Part shown: positions 2,469 through 19,900 of the stretch, in pieces
How positions within the stretch are numbered: the stretch's first letter is position 1
Layout: each line of letters begins with the position of its first letter
Virus record (IMG/VR): IMGVR_UViG_3300029448_000509
Coordinates: 1-21,706 of that record
Reading direction: 5' to 3' (one strand)
DNA length: 21,706 nucleotides
Source: a virus
Notes under the pieces: model-generated
Database searches by the model: none
Seen by the model: the letters and a program-made list of their open reading frames with translations, nothing else
What the model was told of the DNA's origin: nothing
Program-made: the position numbers and the translations under genes

Positions 2469-2724
2469 TTGGGAAGATGCAATAAGCCCTACGCATGGCT
2501 GGACTAGTGTTGACGAAGTTAAGTCACAACTTGCTGACTGTATTTCTATAGGGGTAGTAATAGCAGAAGATAGTAAGACTATTACAATAGTATCTCATAT
2601 GTCAGGAGATGAAAGTAGCACAGACATAGACGGAAGTCTTGTGCTAGATAAAACTTGGATCAAAAACATAAAGAGATTGCCTATACCAAGGCCTTTGCTT
2701 AAGAAGTTAAAAGGCTGGTTATGA
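2431..2724 (+). CDS. Conserved small phage protein, unknown function
   Basis: 97 residues. The start overlaps the end of the nuclease gene by 38 bp and has TAGGA 12 bases upstream. The sequence is soluble with no signal peptide: an N-terminal strand (RLVIINWEDA), a central SIGVVIAEDSKTITIVSHM that looks like two beta strands, then a basic amphipathic tail (PRPLLKKLKGWL). I do not recognise a catalytic motif. Its stop overlaps the next start by four bases (ATGA), so it belongs to the same tightly coupled late operon. Confidence 0.65.
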   Translation: MEQKTLPRLVIINWEDAISPTHGWTSVDEVKSQLADCISIGVVIAEDSKTITIVSHMSGDESSTDIDGSLVLDKTWIKNIKRLPIPRPLLKKLKGWL

Positions 2725-2879
2725 TACTAGAAGCAATAATATCTGCTATACTTTTGACGGCTTTGTTTCACTACTGGCCTAATTCATTTAGAACTTACTG
2801 GCAATCACCTAAAATATCTTGGGTAGAACTTATTTTAATCTTAGCCATTCTTTCCATTGTTCTCCCATTACTTGCGTAG
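2721..2879 (+). CDS. 52-residue membrane protein overlapping the convergent helicase gene
   Basis: A short gene found by reading past the previous stop: ATGA overlap at 2721, AAAGG about 11 bases upstream, and a TAG at 2877-2879. The product has two hydrophobic segments (ILEAIISAILLTALF, then VELILILAILSIVLPLLA) separated by a short polar loop with Trp and Tyr. This hairpin-like topology is common in small phage holins and other membrane proteins. Its last 50 bp lie opposite the 3' end of the SNF2 helicase gene, and no terminator is visible between them. It is real if the ATGA coupling holds; the function is unknown. Confidence 0.6.
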   Translation: MILEAIISAILLTALFHYWPNSFRTYWQSPKISWVELILILAILSIVLPLLA

Positions 2880-4281
2880 CTATTTGTCGCTTGTCTCTTA
2901 ATGATTTTACTATACGCTCGTCAACTGTGCCAGTGCATATTAAGTCTACGTATACTACATTATTTTTCTGTCCTATACGGTGGGCACGATCTTCAGACTG
3001 TATTCTATGTTCTAAGTTATAGCTATTAGAATAATATACAACAGAGCTGGCCGCTGTTAGTGTGAGGCCAAAGCCACCAGTCTGAGGATTACCAATAAAG
3101 AATCGGCAATTTGGGTCTTCTTGAAATCTTTTAACGGCTACCTGCCTGTCATCATTAGTGACTGCTCCGTAATAAGCTACATAAGAATCAGGTCCATATT
3201 CTTTTTTAATACTATTACATATGCTTTGTATGTCGTGTACGTAGCTAGCCCATATAATAACTTTATCAGGTGCTTCAGATAATACATTCATTAGTTCGTT
3301 AAGCCTATTATTTTTAATACTAGTTACAGTGCCATCATCTGATTTAAAATGACCGCAAGTTATTTGATGAAGTCTTAACATAGATGTTAACACGTTTTGC
3401 ACAGTTAAAGGTTTACCTTCTAATTCTGCAAAGGCCTTTTCAGTTAATTCTTTATATACGGTTTTTTGCTCTGCAGTAAGTTCAACAAATCTATACTGGT
3501 ATATTTTTTCTGGTAGTGTAAGACAATCTTCTTTCTTGCATCGATAGCTAAATGACTTAACTAGTTCAGATAGTTCTTCTAGTCTCTGATAACCCACAAT
3601 CTGTTTAAAACTTCTAGTACCCTTAGACATATTAATCATGATAGCATATCTATTTCTAAAGCTATAGTAACTACTGAATCCTAATATTACTGGGTTAAGA
3701 AACTGGCACTGAGTATATAGATCTAGTGGCGATCTAGTTACAGGCTCACCTGTTAAAATTCTTTTGTACTTAGCTTGTACAGATACTTTAATTATATTCT
3801 TAGTACGCATCGCGGTAGGGTTTTTAATAGTCGTTGATTCATCTACTATAACCATAGTACTTCCTAAGTCTACAAATTTCTTAGCATACTTCATACCCTT
3901 AGTCGTTGAGAAAGCTTCTACATTCATAACTAATATTCTTAAATCATGGATTGTGGTTGCTACTTTTTCTAATAATATCTTTTCTTTCTTTTTAGGACTG
4001 GCTGCCCAGTTAGCTATTACAGATTTTATGTGGTCAGGGAGATGAGCTGGTAATTCACTATTAATCCAATTCATATATACTCCTTTAGGTGCTATAATTA
4101 ATACTGAATCAATGGCTCCTTTATCATAAAGATATGAAAAGGTATCAATAGCTACCTTAGATTTGCCTGTGCCCATTTCCATAAACAAAGCATACTCAGA
4201 CTTATCCTTACTAGTCTCCCAGGCTTGCCTCTGATGCTCATAGGGCTTAGTTTTAAACGGATATATGTTACTATGGCTCAT
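2830..4281 (-). CDS. SNF2-family DNA helicase/translocase
   Basis: 483 residues of a superfamily 2 SNF2-type ATPase. Motifs in order: YEHQRQAW near 14; Walker A MEMGTGKS (34-41); motif Ia LIIAPKGV (61-68); DEST Walker B at 147-150; motif III LTGEP at 176-180; motif V NPQTGGFGLTLTAAS; and motif VI SEDRAHRIGQ near 440. All key residues are present, so an active dsDNA-dependent ATPase is expected. Phage enzymes of this type accompany replication and recombination genes and may remodel protein-DNA complexes or branched DNA. It is the last gene of the reverse-strand block, 34 bases after the UvrD-like helicase, with only a weak ribosome site (GTGAGA). Confidence 0.9.
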   Translation of the reverse strand: MSHSNIYPFKTKPYEHQRQAWETSKDKSEYALFMEMGTGKSKVAIDTFSYLYDKGAIDSVLIIAPKGVYMNWINSELPAHLPDHIKSVIANWAASPKKKEKILLEKVATTIHDLRILVMNVEAFSTTKGMKYAKKFVDLGSTMVIVDESTTIKNPTAMRTKNIIKVSVQAKYKRILTGEPVTRSPLDLYTQCQFLNPVILGFSSYYSFRNRYAIMINMSKGTRSFKQIVGYQRLEELSELVKSFSYRCKKEDCLTLPEKIYQYRFVELTAEQKTVYKELTEKAFAELEGKPLTVQNVLTSMLRLHQITCGHFKSDDGTVTSIKNNRLNELMNVLSEAPDKVIIWASYVHDIQSICNSIKKEYGPDSYVAYYGAVTNDDRQVAVKRFQEDPNCRFFIGNPQTGGFGLTLTAASSVVYYSNSYNLEHRIQSEDRAHRIGQKNNVVYVDLICTGTVDERIVKSLRDKRQIATQVMGEQWKEWLRLK

Positions 4282-4315
4282 ACTATAAAAGTCTCACTGT
4301 GCGCGTCTAAGGAAC

Positions 4316-5782
4316 TCATATATCGTAATAATTCCGAGACGTTGGTTGAATGATGTGAATACCGCATTTTGCGCGCGTAAGTGCTACATAGAACACTCGA
4401 TGCTCATCTTCAGGGTATTTTTCCATGTGTGTAAAAGATCGAGCTGCCATGTCAGTCATAATTGCTACATGATCTGCTTCACCTCCTTTAACTCCGTGTA
4501 TAGTATTTATCTTAATCCTAGGTTTTGTTAAAGATTCACCATGTCTCTTTGCTGCTAAGAAATATTCTCTTAGTCTAGGGTTAAGTTTATCAAAACAATC
4601 ATACCAAAAAGCAGATTCTAATTTTGTATCTTCTAAACTATATAATCTTTCATCATCTATTCTCATTCTAAATGAATAGTACTTTTTTATTCTCTTTAAA
4701 TCTGATCCAGCTATTTTATCTCCTTTACACATTTTAGTCCATGACCTTATTGCAAGTAAAGCATCTGACTCTAAAGGTTTACGTGTAGGTGATTCATAAG
4801 AGTAACCACCTTGTTCACATATCCTTTCATAGTCTGTTAACATATAAGAGTTCCGCGCTAGTAACAACCACTCTCCTTTTTCTAGTGGAAGATCGTCTGC
4901 AGAATAGTGGTATTCTACGTAGCCCTCAAAATCACGTGGTGTAAACTCTTTATCTACACGGTCAGGTATATTCTCTAGTATAGTATTAGCTAGCTTATGT
5001 ACTTGACGTGGTATTCTATATGAATGAGATAATACTTTTTTATTGCCTTGTAGATCTGTAAAGTCTTTAACAGAAGCTCCTGCCCAACGGTATATAGCTT
5101 GGTCGTCGTCTCCAGCAGCATATATCTCAGGAACATTTTTACTTACCTTGTGTATCACATTCCATTGTAACTTACTAAGGTCTTGTGCTTCGTCTACAAA
5201 CAAAGCTTTTAGACTAGGCTCAAAGCCTTCATCTAAATATTTATATAGTAAGTCTGTGAAGTCTATAATATTACGTATCTCTTTATATCTTTTAAGACCC
5301 TTAGAGACTATTTTAAGCTGTTCAAAATCAAAGTCATCATCTACTGTTGAGTCATAAATATCTTTTATAGATGTCATAGATATTCTAGCTAAGTTATCTA
5401 AAAAAAATAACCTATCACCTAACGGCATGCCCAATGAATATACATCTTCATTCATAGCACTACCTGATACATTAATACCAAGCAACATTCCTAATTCTTT
5501 GTAGTCAGACTTCTGCATCATCTGGTTAGGTTTAATACCTAGCTGCATAAAGCATAGACTATGTATAGTTCTAAAGTATGGCATATCATCTTTAGTAAAC
5601 CCAAACTTATCTTCAGCCCTAGATCGAGCTTCAAAAGCTGCTTTGCGTGTAAAAGCTAAGTAGCCTATTTGTGTTGGTGATATACTATCAGCTAACTTAT
5701 CTTCTATAAATTTCATACCTGTGGTAGTTTTACCAGTACCAGGTGGTCCAAATATTATATTCCAATCAGAACGGGACTTCAT
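4316..5782 (-). CDS. UvrD/Rep-like superfamily 1 DNA helicase
   Basis: 488 residues. Motif I GPPGTGKTT (12-20), Ia YLAFTRKAA (41-49), Walker B VDEAQD (196-201), motif III GDDDQAIYRW (224-233), motif IV SYRIPRQVHKLAN, motif V INTIHGVKGGEAD and motif VI VALTRAK near 470 are all intact. This is the superfamily 1A set of ATP-dependent 3'-5' helicases such as UvrD, Rep and PcrA. At under 500 residues it is shorter than the bacterial enzymes (about 700), with reduced accessory subdomains, as in many phage versions. It starts within the last 17 bases of the primase gene with GAGGGAA upstream, so the two are coupled. It is a good candidate for the replicative unwinding activity, since no DnaB-type helicase is visible. 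Confidence 0.9.
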   Translation of the reverse strand: MKSRSDWNIIFGPPGTGKTTTGMKFIEDKLADSISPTQIGYLAFTRKAAFEARSRAEDKFGFTKDDMPYFRTIHSLCFMQLGIKPNQMMQKSDYKELGMLLGINVSGSAMNEDVYSLGMPLGDRLFFLDNLARISMTSIKDIYDSTVDDDFDFEQLKIVSKGLKRYKEIRNIIDFTDLLYKYLDEGFEPSLKALFVDEAQDLSKLQWNVIHKVSKNVPEIYAAGDDDQAIYRWAGASVKDFTDLQGNKKVLSHSYRIPRQVHKLANTILENIPDRVDKEFTPRDFEGYVEYHYSADDLPLEKGEWLLLARNSYMLTDYERICEQGGYSYESPTRKPLESDALLAIRSWTKMCKGDKIAGSDLKRIKKYYSFRMRIDDERLYSLEDTKLESAFWYDCFDKLNPRLREYFLAAKRHGESLTKPRIKINTIHGVKGGEADHVAIMTDMAARSFTHMEKYPEDEHRVFYVALTRAKCGIHIIQPTSRNYYDI

Positions 5783-18655: not shown

Positions 18656-18674
18656 AGATCCTCCTTTCTTTATA

Positions 18675-18705
18675 AATAAGAATAATTTCTTATTATTATA
18701 TTATA
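18675..18705 (-). promoter_or_regulatory. Probable promoter -10 region and leader hairpin
   Basis: The 70-base AT-rich stretch before the 94-residue gene has two overlapping TATAAT boxes on the reverse strand (18705-18700 and 18700-18695), without a convincing -35. An 8-bp hairpin (18687-18694 with 18675-18682, 4-nt loop) would lie at the very 5' end of the transcript, as at the other early promoters. Confidence 0.4.
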
Positions 18706-18774
18706 TAATATGCTGATTAATAAATAAACTTCTTTTTATCCTCCGTACCAGATAATGTCTCCACCATTTTTTAT

Positions 18775-18807
18775 AAAAAAAGGGAGCTAAGATAACTCCT
18801 AGCTCCC
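18775..18807 (-). terminator. Intrinsic terminator, copy 2 of the duplicated hairpin
   Basis: A perfect 8-bp stem (18800-18807 with 18782-18789, 10-nt loop) starts eight bases after the stop of the 135-residue gene and is followed on the reverse strand by seven T (18781-18775). It is a sequence relative of the hairpin at 18338-18363; one of the four differences pairs is a compensatory C-G to T-A change in the stem. Confidence 0.85.
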
Positions 18808-18814
18808 CAATCCT

Positions 18815-19222
18815 TTATTTGTTAACTTGGATTAAAGTTATTTTTGTCTCCTTCTGACCTTTAAAATAATTTCTGTAAAAATTTAAGATCGCAGAAGCTG
18901 GTTGGGCAATTGGACTACCTTTTCTACCCAGTAAAACCCCATCAGCTGCCATTTTACGAACAGCCTCAGTTATTACTTCCCAACTATATTCAACCTCATA
19001 CTTAACACCAAACTTAGGTAAGTTGGATAATATAGTCTTCGCCTGTTTAGGAAGCTTATCATCCCAGTTATCTAATTTCGTAATATCTACAAACTTAAAT
19101 AACTTACTTTTACTAACTCTGGTAGCCTGCTTAGGCGTACTAGGTTTTGCTACATTTTTACTAGTTATTTTATGTCCAGCAGGAGCAACCGCTCCCTGTG
19201 GAGCTATGCTCATACTTTTCAT
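18815..19222 (-). CDS. Early protein of the LPxQ / PAxIIxYY family
   Basis: 135 residues with AAAGGAG upstream, a single-gene unit between the promoter at 19286-19323 and the terminator at 18775-18807. An unstructured Ala/Pro/Lys-rich arm (residues 1-40) precedes LFKFVDITKLDNWDDKLPKQ, a helix, VEYSWEVITEAVRKMAADGV and QPASAILNFYRNYFKG. The last part resembles PAxIIxYY segments in 14774-14986 and 20186-20491. Helix-turn-helix-like character and its own regulated unit suggest a DNA-binding early regulator or host-directed protein; this is inference. Confidence 0.6.
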   Translation of the reverse strand: MKSMSIAPQGAVAPAGHKITSKNVAKPSTPKQATRVSKSKLFKFVDITKLDNWDDKLPKQAKTILSNLPKFGVKYEVEYSWEVITEAVRKMAADGVLLGRKGSPIAQPASAILNFYRNYFKGQKETKITLIQVNK

Positions 19223-19254
19223 TTTATATTCTCCTTTCTAAGAATTTAATTAAC

Positions 19255-19323
19255 AGAATGAAAATTATTTCTCATTCTTATATAGATTATACTATAACCA
19301 GTTAATAAAGTATACTCCTATTT
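19255..19323 (-). promoter_or_regulatory. Early promoter with leader hairpin
   Basis: On the reverse strand AAATAGG (19323-19317), TATACT (19314-19309), a 17-bp spacer and TATAAT (19291-19286). A perfect 7-bp hairpin (19272-19278 with 19255-19261, 10-nt loop) would form at the 5' end of the transcript. The distances between all boxes equal those at 17651-17688. Confidence 0.55.
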
Positions 19324-19711
19324 AACATATAATATTAATCAGTTGTAATTGATAATAAATCAACTTTTATCGGGGACAGGCGCCAGGGTCCGAGGCATTC
19401 AGATCAACCGCAAGGGTTCAAGGTGTTTGATTTTTAAATAATTATTTACTCCTCCTGGCCCTTTGGTTAACTGATTCTGCGCCAGGGCGATTGATCCGGT
19501 AATCTTGACCCTTCTCGGGGAGCTCTTGGCTCTAAATTCGTACCTCCTCCCGCCCTGTACCGTACTCACCGTACCGTACCTACCGTACCCTACACCGCCC
19601 GATCCTTCGCGCCCATCTCTGCCTGCCTATAGCAGAAACCACGATATGGGGTTGTTGTGTCAGTTCAAATTGTCACTTATACAATCATAAGCATCACCTC
19701 ATGATATGATA
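19324..19711. other. Non-coding, GC-richer control or origin-like region with repeats
   Basis: No convincing gene is seen in this 388-bp stretch. It differs from the AT-rich flanks by a GC-richer block (about 19373-19640). Contents: GCGCCAGGG twice (19380-19388 and 19479-19487); a 14-bp perfect AT palindrome at 19435-19448 between them; four ACCGTAC copies in 30 bp (19559-19565, 19568-19574, 19573-19579, 19582-19588); and a pyrimidine-rich tract around 19540. Iterated boxes beside an AT palindrome suggest a replication origin or a regulatory site. A structured RNA is also possible; no tRNA cloverleaf could be folded by eye. Confidence 0.45.
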
Positions 19712-19900
19712 TTACTCTCTAGTTAGAGATTCAAAGCCAAGCTCTGAAGTCTCCCCATCGTAGATACCCCAAACACATCTCATGTAATAACCACAGTGGT
19801 CACATAAGTGTGTAACATGTAACACTGGTCTATTACTAGTCTCAGTGTTCATTTGGTTTCCACAATTAGGACAAGTAGAGTCTTCTACAAAACTACTCAT
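19712..19900 (-). CDS. Small zinc-ribbon protein
   Basis: 62 residues with GGGAGG eight bases upstream. Two CxxC knuckles, CPNCG (10-14) and CDHCG (33-37), separated by 19 residues, form a classic zinc ribbon. A hydrophobic YYMRCVWGIYDG and an acidic tail follow. Small zinc-ribbon proteins in phage early regions often bind nucleic acid or the host transcription machinery; the target here is unknown. Confidence 0.7.
   Translation of the reverse strand: MSSFVEDSTCPNCGNQMNTETSNRPVLHVTHLCDHCGYYMRCVWGIYDGETSELGFESLTRE

Follow-up and report, generated by a model that had tools for sequence, protein, structure and literature searches.

A conserved gene-free element with a start-stop minigene and covarying hairpins, probably a structured RNA, in one clade of IMG/VR phages

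What is a long, GC-rich stretch of gene-free sequence doing in a compact phage genome? The stretch of DNA analyzed here (“the window”) is a 21.7-kb virus record (21,706 nucleotides) with relatives in IMG/VR, and an earlier note on it had singled out a 388-bp gap at 19324–19711. That gap is real but forms part of a larger one: comparison of open reading frames in the window placed the gene-free stretch between plausible genes at 19223–19711, bordered by the start of a 135-aa gene (19222, minus strand) and the end of a 62-aa frame (19712, minus strand). It is the largest gap in the window but one of several (others are ∼150–290 bp, e.g., 18656–18814). Its base composition does differ from its surroundings: 19324–19711 has a GC content of 46.1% (37.3% for the window, 31.3% and 39.0% for the 300 bp to the left and right), reached by 1.0% of 388-bp windows, and its core (19373–19640) has 54.1%, reached by 1 of 2144 windows. 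The interval was also confirmed as gene-free against relatives, in which neither internal frame was conserved: a 56-aa minus-strand frame matched the related locus L003 only as two separate segments lying in different frames, a 61-aa plus-strand frame matched only in short pieces, and both were rejected as genes. No tRNA or tmRNA was found in the window.

The iterated words within the gap had been read as an origin, a regulator-binding array or a structured RNA:

19554–19589, no strand assigned: variable GC-rich segment with an ACCGTAC array, in the window and L003 only
19380–19388, plus strand: first copy of GCGCCAGGG, inside the conserved block TTTTATCGGG..CAGGCGCC
19479–19487, plus strand: second copy of GCGCCAGGG
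19435–19448, no strand assigned: 14-bp AT palindrome TAAATAATTATTTA, between the GCGCCAGGG copies

As descriptions of the window these words were accurate. ACCGTAC occurs four times in 30 bp (19559, 19568, 19573, and 19582) and elsewhere in the window only at 818; four copies in the gap were reached in 0 of 2000 dinucleotide shuffles (shuffle mean, 0.022). The two copies of GCGCCAGGG (19380 and 19479) flank the palindrome and have no further copy in the window. Among relatives, the boxes are not what is kept: ACCGTAC and GCGCCAGGG were each present in 2 of 13 related elements (the window and L003), and the palindrome was not kept in the alignment of related elements. The iterated DNA words are thus mostly not shared among relatives, and of the three proposals it was the structured RNA that gained ground, through hairpins and a minigene at 19608–19700 and a further hairpin, P3. 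Two minor observations concern words of this kind. In L028 (3573–3760), the variable GC-rich segment carries repeats of GGTACGTTGG that recall the ACCGTAC array of the window. Strong Shine-Dalgarno-like AGGAGG words lie at 19446–19456 and 19539–19548 of the window (minus strand) with no start codon nearby, and similar words occur in L003 and L006.

A search with the window terminase found 80 loci. In the clade members nearer to the window (terminase identity of about 89% or more), blastn and nhmmer located the element upstream of the terminase. It was recovered by nhmmer in 23 loci (window counted), and the larger element (∼19349–19700) is conserved, in an unchanged position, in 20 further IMG/VR contigs, all from a single phage clade. 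The covariance model R1 matched strongly in 21 of 81 sources (window included). Among loci L003 to L028, four were too short upstream to judge (L004, L005, L009, and L018), and the full right-hand module was present in 20 of the remaining 22. The other two were L025, a weak match with the minigene present and hairpins P1 and P2 absent, and L028, in which the left end is kept and the minigene module is absent. Outside the clade R1 gave chance-level matches only; those in 14 farther-clade records were weak, and the ones inspected resemble chance. A 32-nt match in an Asaia MAG came without the minigene and was rejected, as was a single 27-nt match between the L014 element and Providencia phage PSTCR6, taken as chance; a search of the phage collection gave no match to the window or L024 element. 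In the alignment, the conserved parts are the right module (19608–19700), P3 with its neighborhood, and a left block with a dyad. The element was more alike than the following gene in several comparisons, such as L008 with L012 (78% versus 57% of aligned bases) and L012 with L019 (76% versus 61%), and the reverse was true in others, such as the window with L003 (68% for the element versus 80% for the gene); the likeness of the terminase exceeded both in each of the ten pairs compared.

Reading along the minus strand, the element comprises the following features, of which those of the module at the right end (19608–19700) are the best supported:

19697–19700, minus strand: Shine-Dalgarno-like GAGG, 8 nt ahead of the ATG of the minigene; found in 17 of 17 copies, most relatives having GGAGG
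19677–19688, minus strand: minigene ATG ATT GTA TAA; all 17 copies checked have ATG, then one or two codons, then a TAA or TAG stop
19663–19674, minus strand: conserved linker GACAATTTGAAC, just past the minigene stop in the alignment
19639–19649, minus strand: hairpin P1; 10 of 13 copies have UUCG or UGCG as the tetraloop, and the window has another loop
19623–19635, minus strand: hairpin P2, CTGC-TATAG-GCAG; 5 pairs, 100% paired in 13 copies
19608–19614, minus strand: conserved GGGCGCG, candidate 5' arm of a long-range pairing
19520–19532, minus strand: hairpin P3, GAGC-CAAGA-GCTC; 28 of 28 cells paired in 7 aligned copies

Relatives carry the minigene as ATG CAC TAG, ATG GAC TAG, ATG CAA TAA, or ATG GAA TAA. 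Spacing (5–9 bases from GAGG to ATG across 17 copies) and codons vary while the signals stay constant, and in the window group, where the frame is displaced by one base, another stop still closes it. For comparison, about 11 of 730 other GAGG-spaced ATGs in the same loci (752 such contexts minus 22 element copies) had a stop in codon 3 or 4; because the copies are related, the 17 of 17 amounts to few independent events. A promoter scan found no promoter conserved before the minigene, and the distance from the end of the upstream gene to the Shine-Dalgarno was 11–22 nt in 9 of 14 loci and 58–70 nt in 4, with none found in 1. From the minigene stop to P1 there are 27 bases, so that, given the footprint size of a ribosome, one on the minigene would cover the linker and not P1; our guess that a ribosome gates the linker starts from this spacing. 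In many relatives, judged by eye, a second ATG follows the minigene and begins a short frame. This frame was rejected: the ATG is missing from the window, L019 and L007 do not keep it in frame with the minigene, and the compensatory change in P1 is non-synonymous in it.

The bar minigene of phage lambda is toxic when peptidyl-tRNA hydrolase is deficient. In a published account (PMC8012679), lambda bar minigenes are a start codon, one or two codons and a stop on a phage transcript, a layout that the minigene of the window element shares. If the resemblance extended to function, translation of the tiny frame would tie up tRNA or ribosomes and slow host translation. We consider this very improbable: the layout with its Shine-Dalgarno is kept in all 17 copies, but bar reads AUG-AUA-UAA and AUA occurs in none of the 17 minigenes of the clade, their second codon varies (CAC, GAC, CAA, GAA, and ATT), and the frame is fixed to a syntenic place and to two hairpins, which would be superfluous.

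Hairpin P2 has three pairs changed on both sides among 13 copies. None of 500 shuffles attained the joint covariation score of P1 and P2, and slid versions peaked at 0.115, versus 0.375; in a search of all column pairs of the right module, P2 pair 72-82 ranked first, a P1 pair fifth and a second P2 pair sixth. The P1 columns are unpaired in the window, L024, and L026, where a shifted register is needed. P3 has two of four pairs changed on both sides, with a modest shuffle control (12 of 500; 7 copies), and was found by motif in 8 of 13 elements (missing from L013, L010, L007, L024, and L026). Pairing at longer range is less clear. A candidate GGGCGC/GCGCCC stem can form in the main subgroup, where L008, L023, and L019 extend it, and is out of register in the window, L003, L006, L024, and L026. 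A blind helix scan of ten main-subgroup copies found no notable covarying long-range helix; P2 alone stood out, to nearly the same degree on either strand. Covariation therefore lends no support to long-range folding.

Conservation across the clade at one place, covariation in P2 and P3 and a constant minigene, all established by comparison, are most economically accounted for by a structured RNA of the leftward transcript together with an adjoining promoter-control region, a reading that we regard as probable. Transcription of the element and its strand, like translation of the minigene, are what we infer from these patterns. Minus-strand signs are the UNCG loops of P1 (10 of 13), a U-G pair in P2 (13 of 13), and a G-U pair in P3 of L006. 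Folding energies leave the strand undecided, and whole-element folding does not favor minus: single-sequence z scores were −2.32 (plus) and −1.91 (minus), and RNAalifold on ten copies gave −117 and −107. An RNA from the plus strand, on which the apparent Shine-Dalgarno would be a CCUCC seed pairing with ribosome-binding sites, could draw on folding at least as good as that of minus and on a pyrimidine-rich strand with CTCCTCC near 19450 and 19545. It appears improbable: those internal words occur in the window, L003, and L006 only, the UNCG loops and U-G and G-U pairs fit minus, and the invariant ATG and stop would be left unexplained.

The left end of the element and the genes on either side bear on the promoter-control region and on two further explanations:

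19349–19363, no strand assigned: dyad TTGATAATAAATCAA, conserved in the clade; no other exact TTGATNNNNNATCAA occurs in the window
19286–19315, minus strand: promoter-like pair GTATAC / TATAAT for the 135-aa gene, from a sequence scan
18815–19222, minus strand: 135-aa gene, following the element in all compared loci
18781–18808, minus strand: intrinsic terminator after the 135-aa gene, from a terminator scan; 3 of 3 loci scanned (window, L008, and L003)
19712–19900, minus strand: 62-aa zinc-ribbon-like gene (weak Pfam matches, below cut-off), in a variable slot directly before the element

The dyad lies just upstream of the promoter-like site, where each of the 13 copies had TATAAT or TACAAT with a −35-like box among its top five sites; a regulator-site component at this end is plausible, judging by the position of the dyad before a conserved promoter. 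In the main subgroup (L008:3511–3598, L010:3898–3985, and 13 further terminase loci), AATCAANNACTTAGGRCCC occurs twice within the element, exactly 69 bp apart. These repeats match the IHF consensus, WATCAANNNNTTR.

Such sites might indicate that the element acts as DNA only (an operator, origin, or packaging site), with proteins binding the dyad, the GC-rich block, and the two 19-bp repeats of relatives, and with the hairpins and minigene incidental. The dyad and GC block are conserved in subgroups, L028 included; all 15 terminase loci with AATCAANNACTTAGGRCCC have it in the same spacing; and the composition skew turns within about 1 kb. We judge control by DNA alone unlikely, however. The GC skew turns near 20.6 kb, where gene direction turns too, the 19-bp repeats are absent from the window, L003, and L006, and compensatory changes in P2 and P3 are unexpected for duplex DNA sites.

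The gene directly before the element is of about six unrelated kinds across phages (by eye), and this slot is exchanged between phages, containing a zinc ribbon, a 55-aa protein, or other small proteins. The right module of the window is 91% like that of L024, and the remainder aligns with L003. Both facts would suit a boundary sequence, conserved as an anchor for the exchange of gene cassettes by homologous recombination, but base-pair covariation and the kept minigene would go unexplained, and we hold this to be quite improbable. On the other side, the 135-aa protein has relatives in all compared loci. When a DNA-binding role was considered for it, its AlphaFold model (mean pLDDT, 73) had no match at an E value of 0.001; the best match was VIA (Z, 5.0), with weak MDM2-like fold matches at 3–4. 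The protein has a paralog in another small gene on the upstream side of the element. In L028 the two are 55% identical, and there the paralogous small genes (3157–3480 and 4094–4384) stand either side of the region; likeness between the window pair was not significant.

To return to the structured RNA of the leftward transcript, none of the known families searched accounted for it. Rfam 15 gave 0 matches at family cut-off in the window, L008, L012, L019, L010, L007, and L003, with the best sub-threshold score (RAGATH-12; 13.9 bits versus a cut-off of 75) lying outside the core. On our reading the element is absent from Rfam and the structured RNA unlisted; a search of open-access literature found no recognized description of it. 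The RNAs manA, wcaG, and c4 antisense RNA, presented in one account (PMC2864571) as conserved non-coding candidates carried by phages (orphan phage or marine structured RNAs), were not detected at Rfam cut-off in the window or the six relatives. PF00940 (T7-like single-subunit RNA polymerase) was matched in 0 of 10 records, and the control genomes likewise gave none. Through put RNA, RNA polymerase reads through terminators without a phage protein. The put RNA of HK022 is outlined in another account (PMC9378689) as an antitermination RNA of about 70 nt with two adjacent hairpins in an early phage transcript. The window element has hairpins P1 (3 bp) and P2 (4–5 bp) side by side, but its stems are far smaller, a minigene stands in front, and an early promoter is not conserved immediately upstream; the two cannot be compared by sequence. 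We treat put RNA and lambda bar as functional analogies, not memberships.

The proposed element would have two parts. The first would be a minus-strand structured RNA starting right after the last small gene of the operon, in the order Shine-Dalgarno, minigene of two to three codons, linker, P1, P2, variable GC-rich stretch, and P3; the second, at the far end, would be the dyad and the promoter from which the conserved 135-aa gene is read. A ribosome that has finished the upstream gene might restart on the minigene, terminate immediately, and cover the linker, and the hairpins, with or without that ribosome, might decide what becomes of the transcript: how stable it is, how it is processed, or whether transcription continues into the 135-aa gene. 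This mechanism is a guess, to which we give low credence. That the element represents a new, ribosome-gated class of phage RNA, in which a start-stop minigene parks a ribosome over the linker and switches two hairpins so that an early transcript is continued, cut, or kept, is a doubtful, speculative extension. Most known non-coding RNAs of phages come from cultured model phages. Here an element outside Rfam shows compensatory changes and carries a conserved minigene of two to three codons. If translated, this minigene would allow one to ask, in a natural setting, whether a terminating ribosome can by itself serve as a regulatory signal.

The farther clade (81–84% terminase identity) has a conserved non-coding segment of its own, different from the window element; in L031 (about 2500–3100) and its farther-clade relatives, that segment carries TTTATGTCCCC and CAATCAATACAATA-like words.
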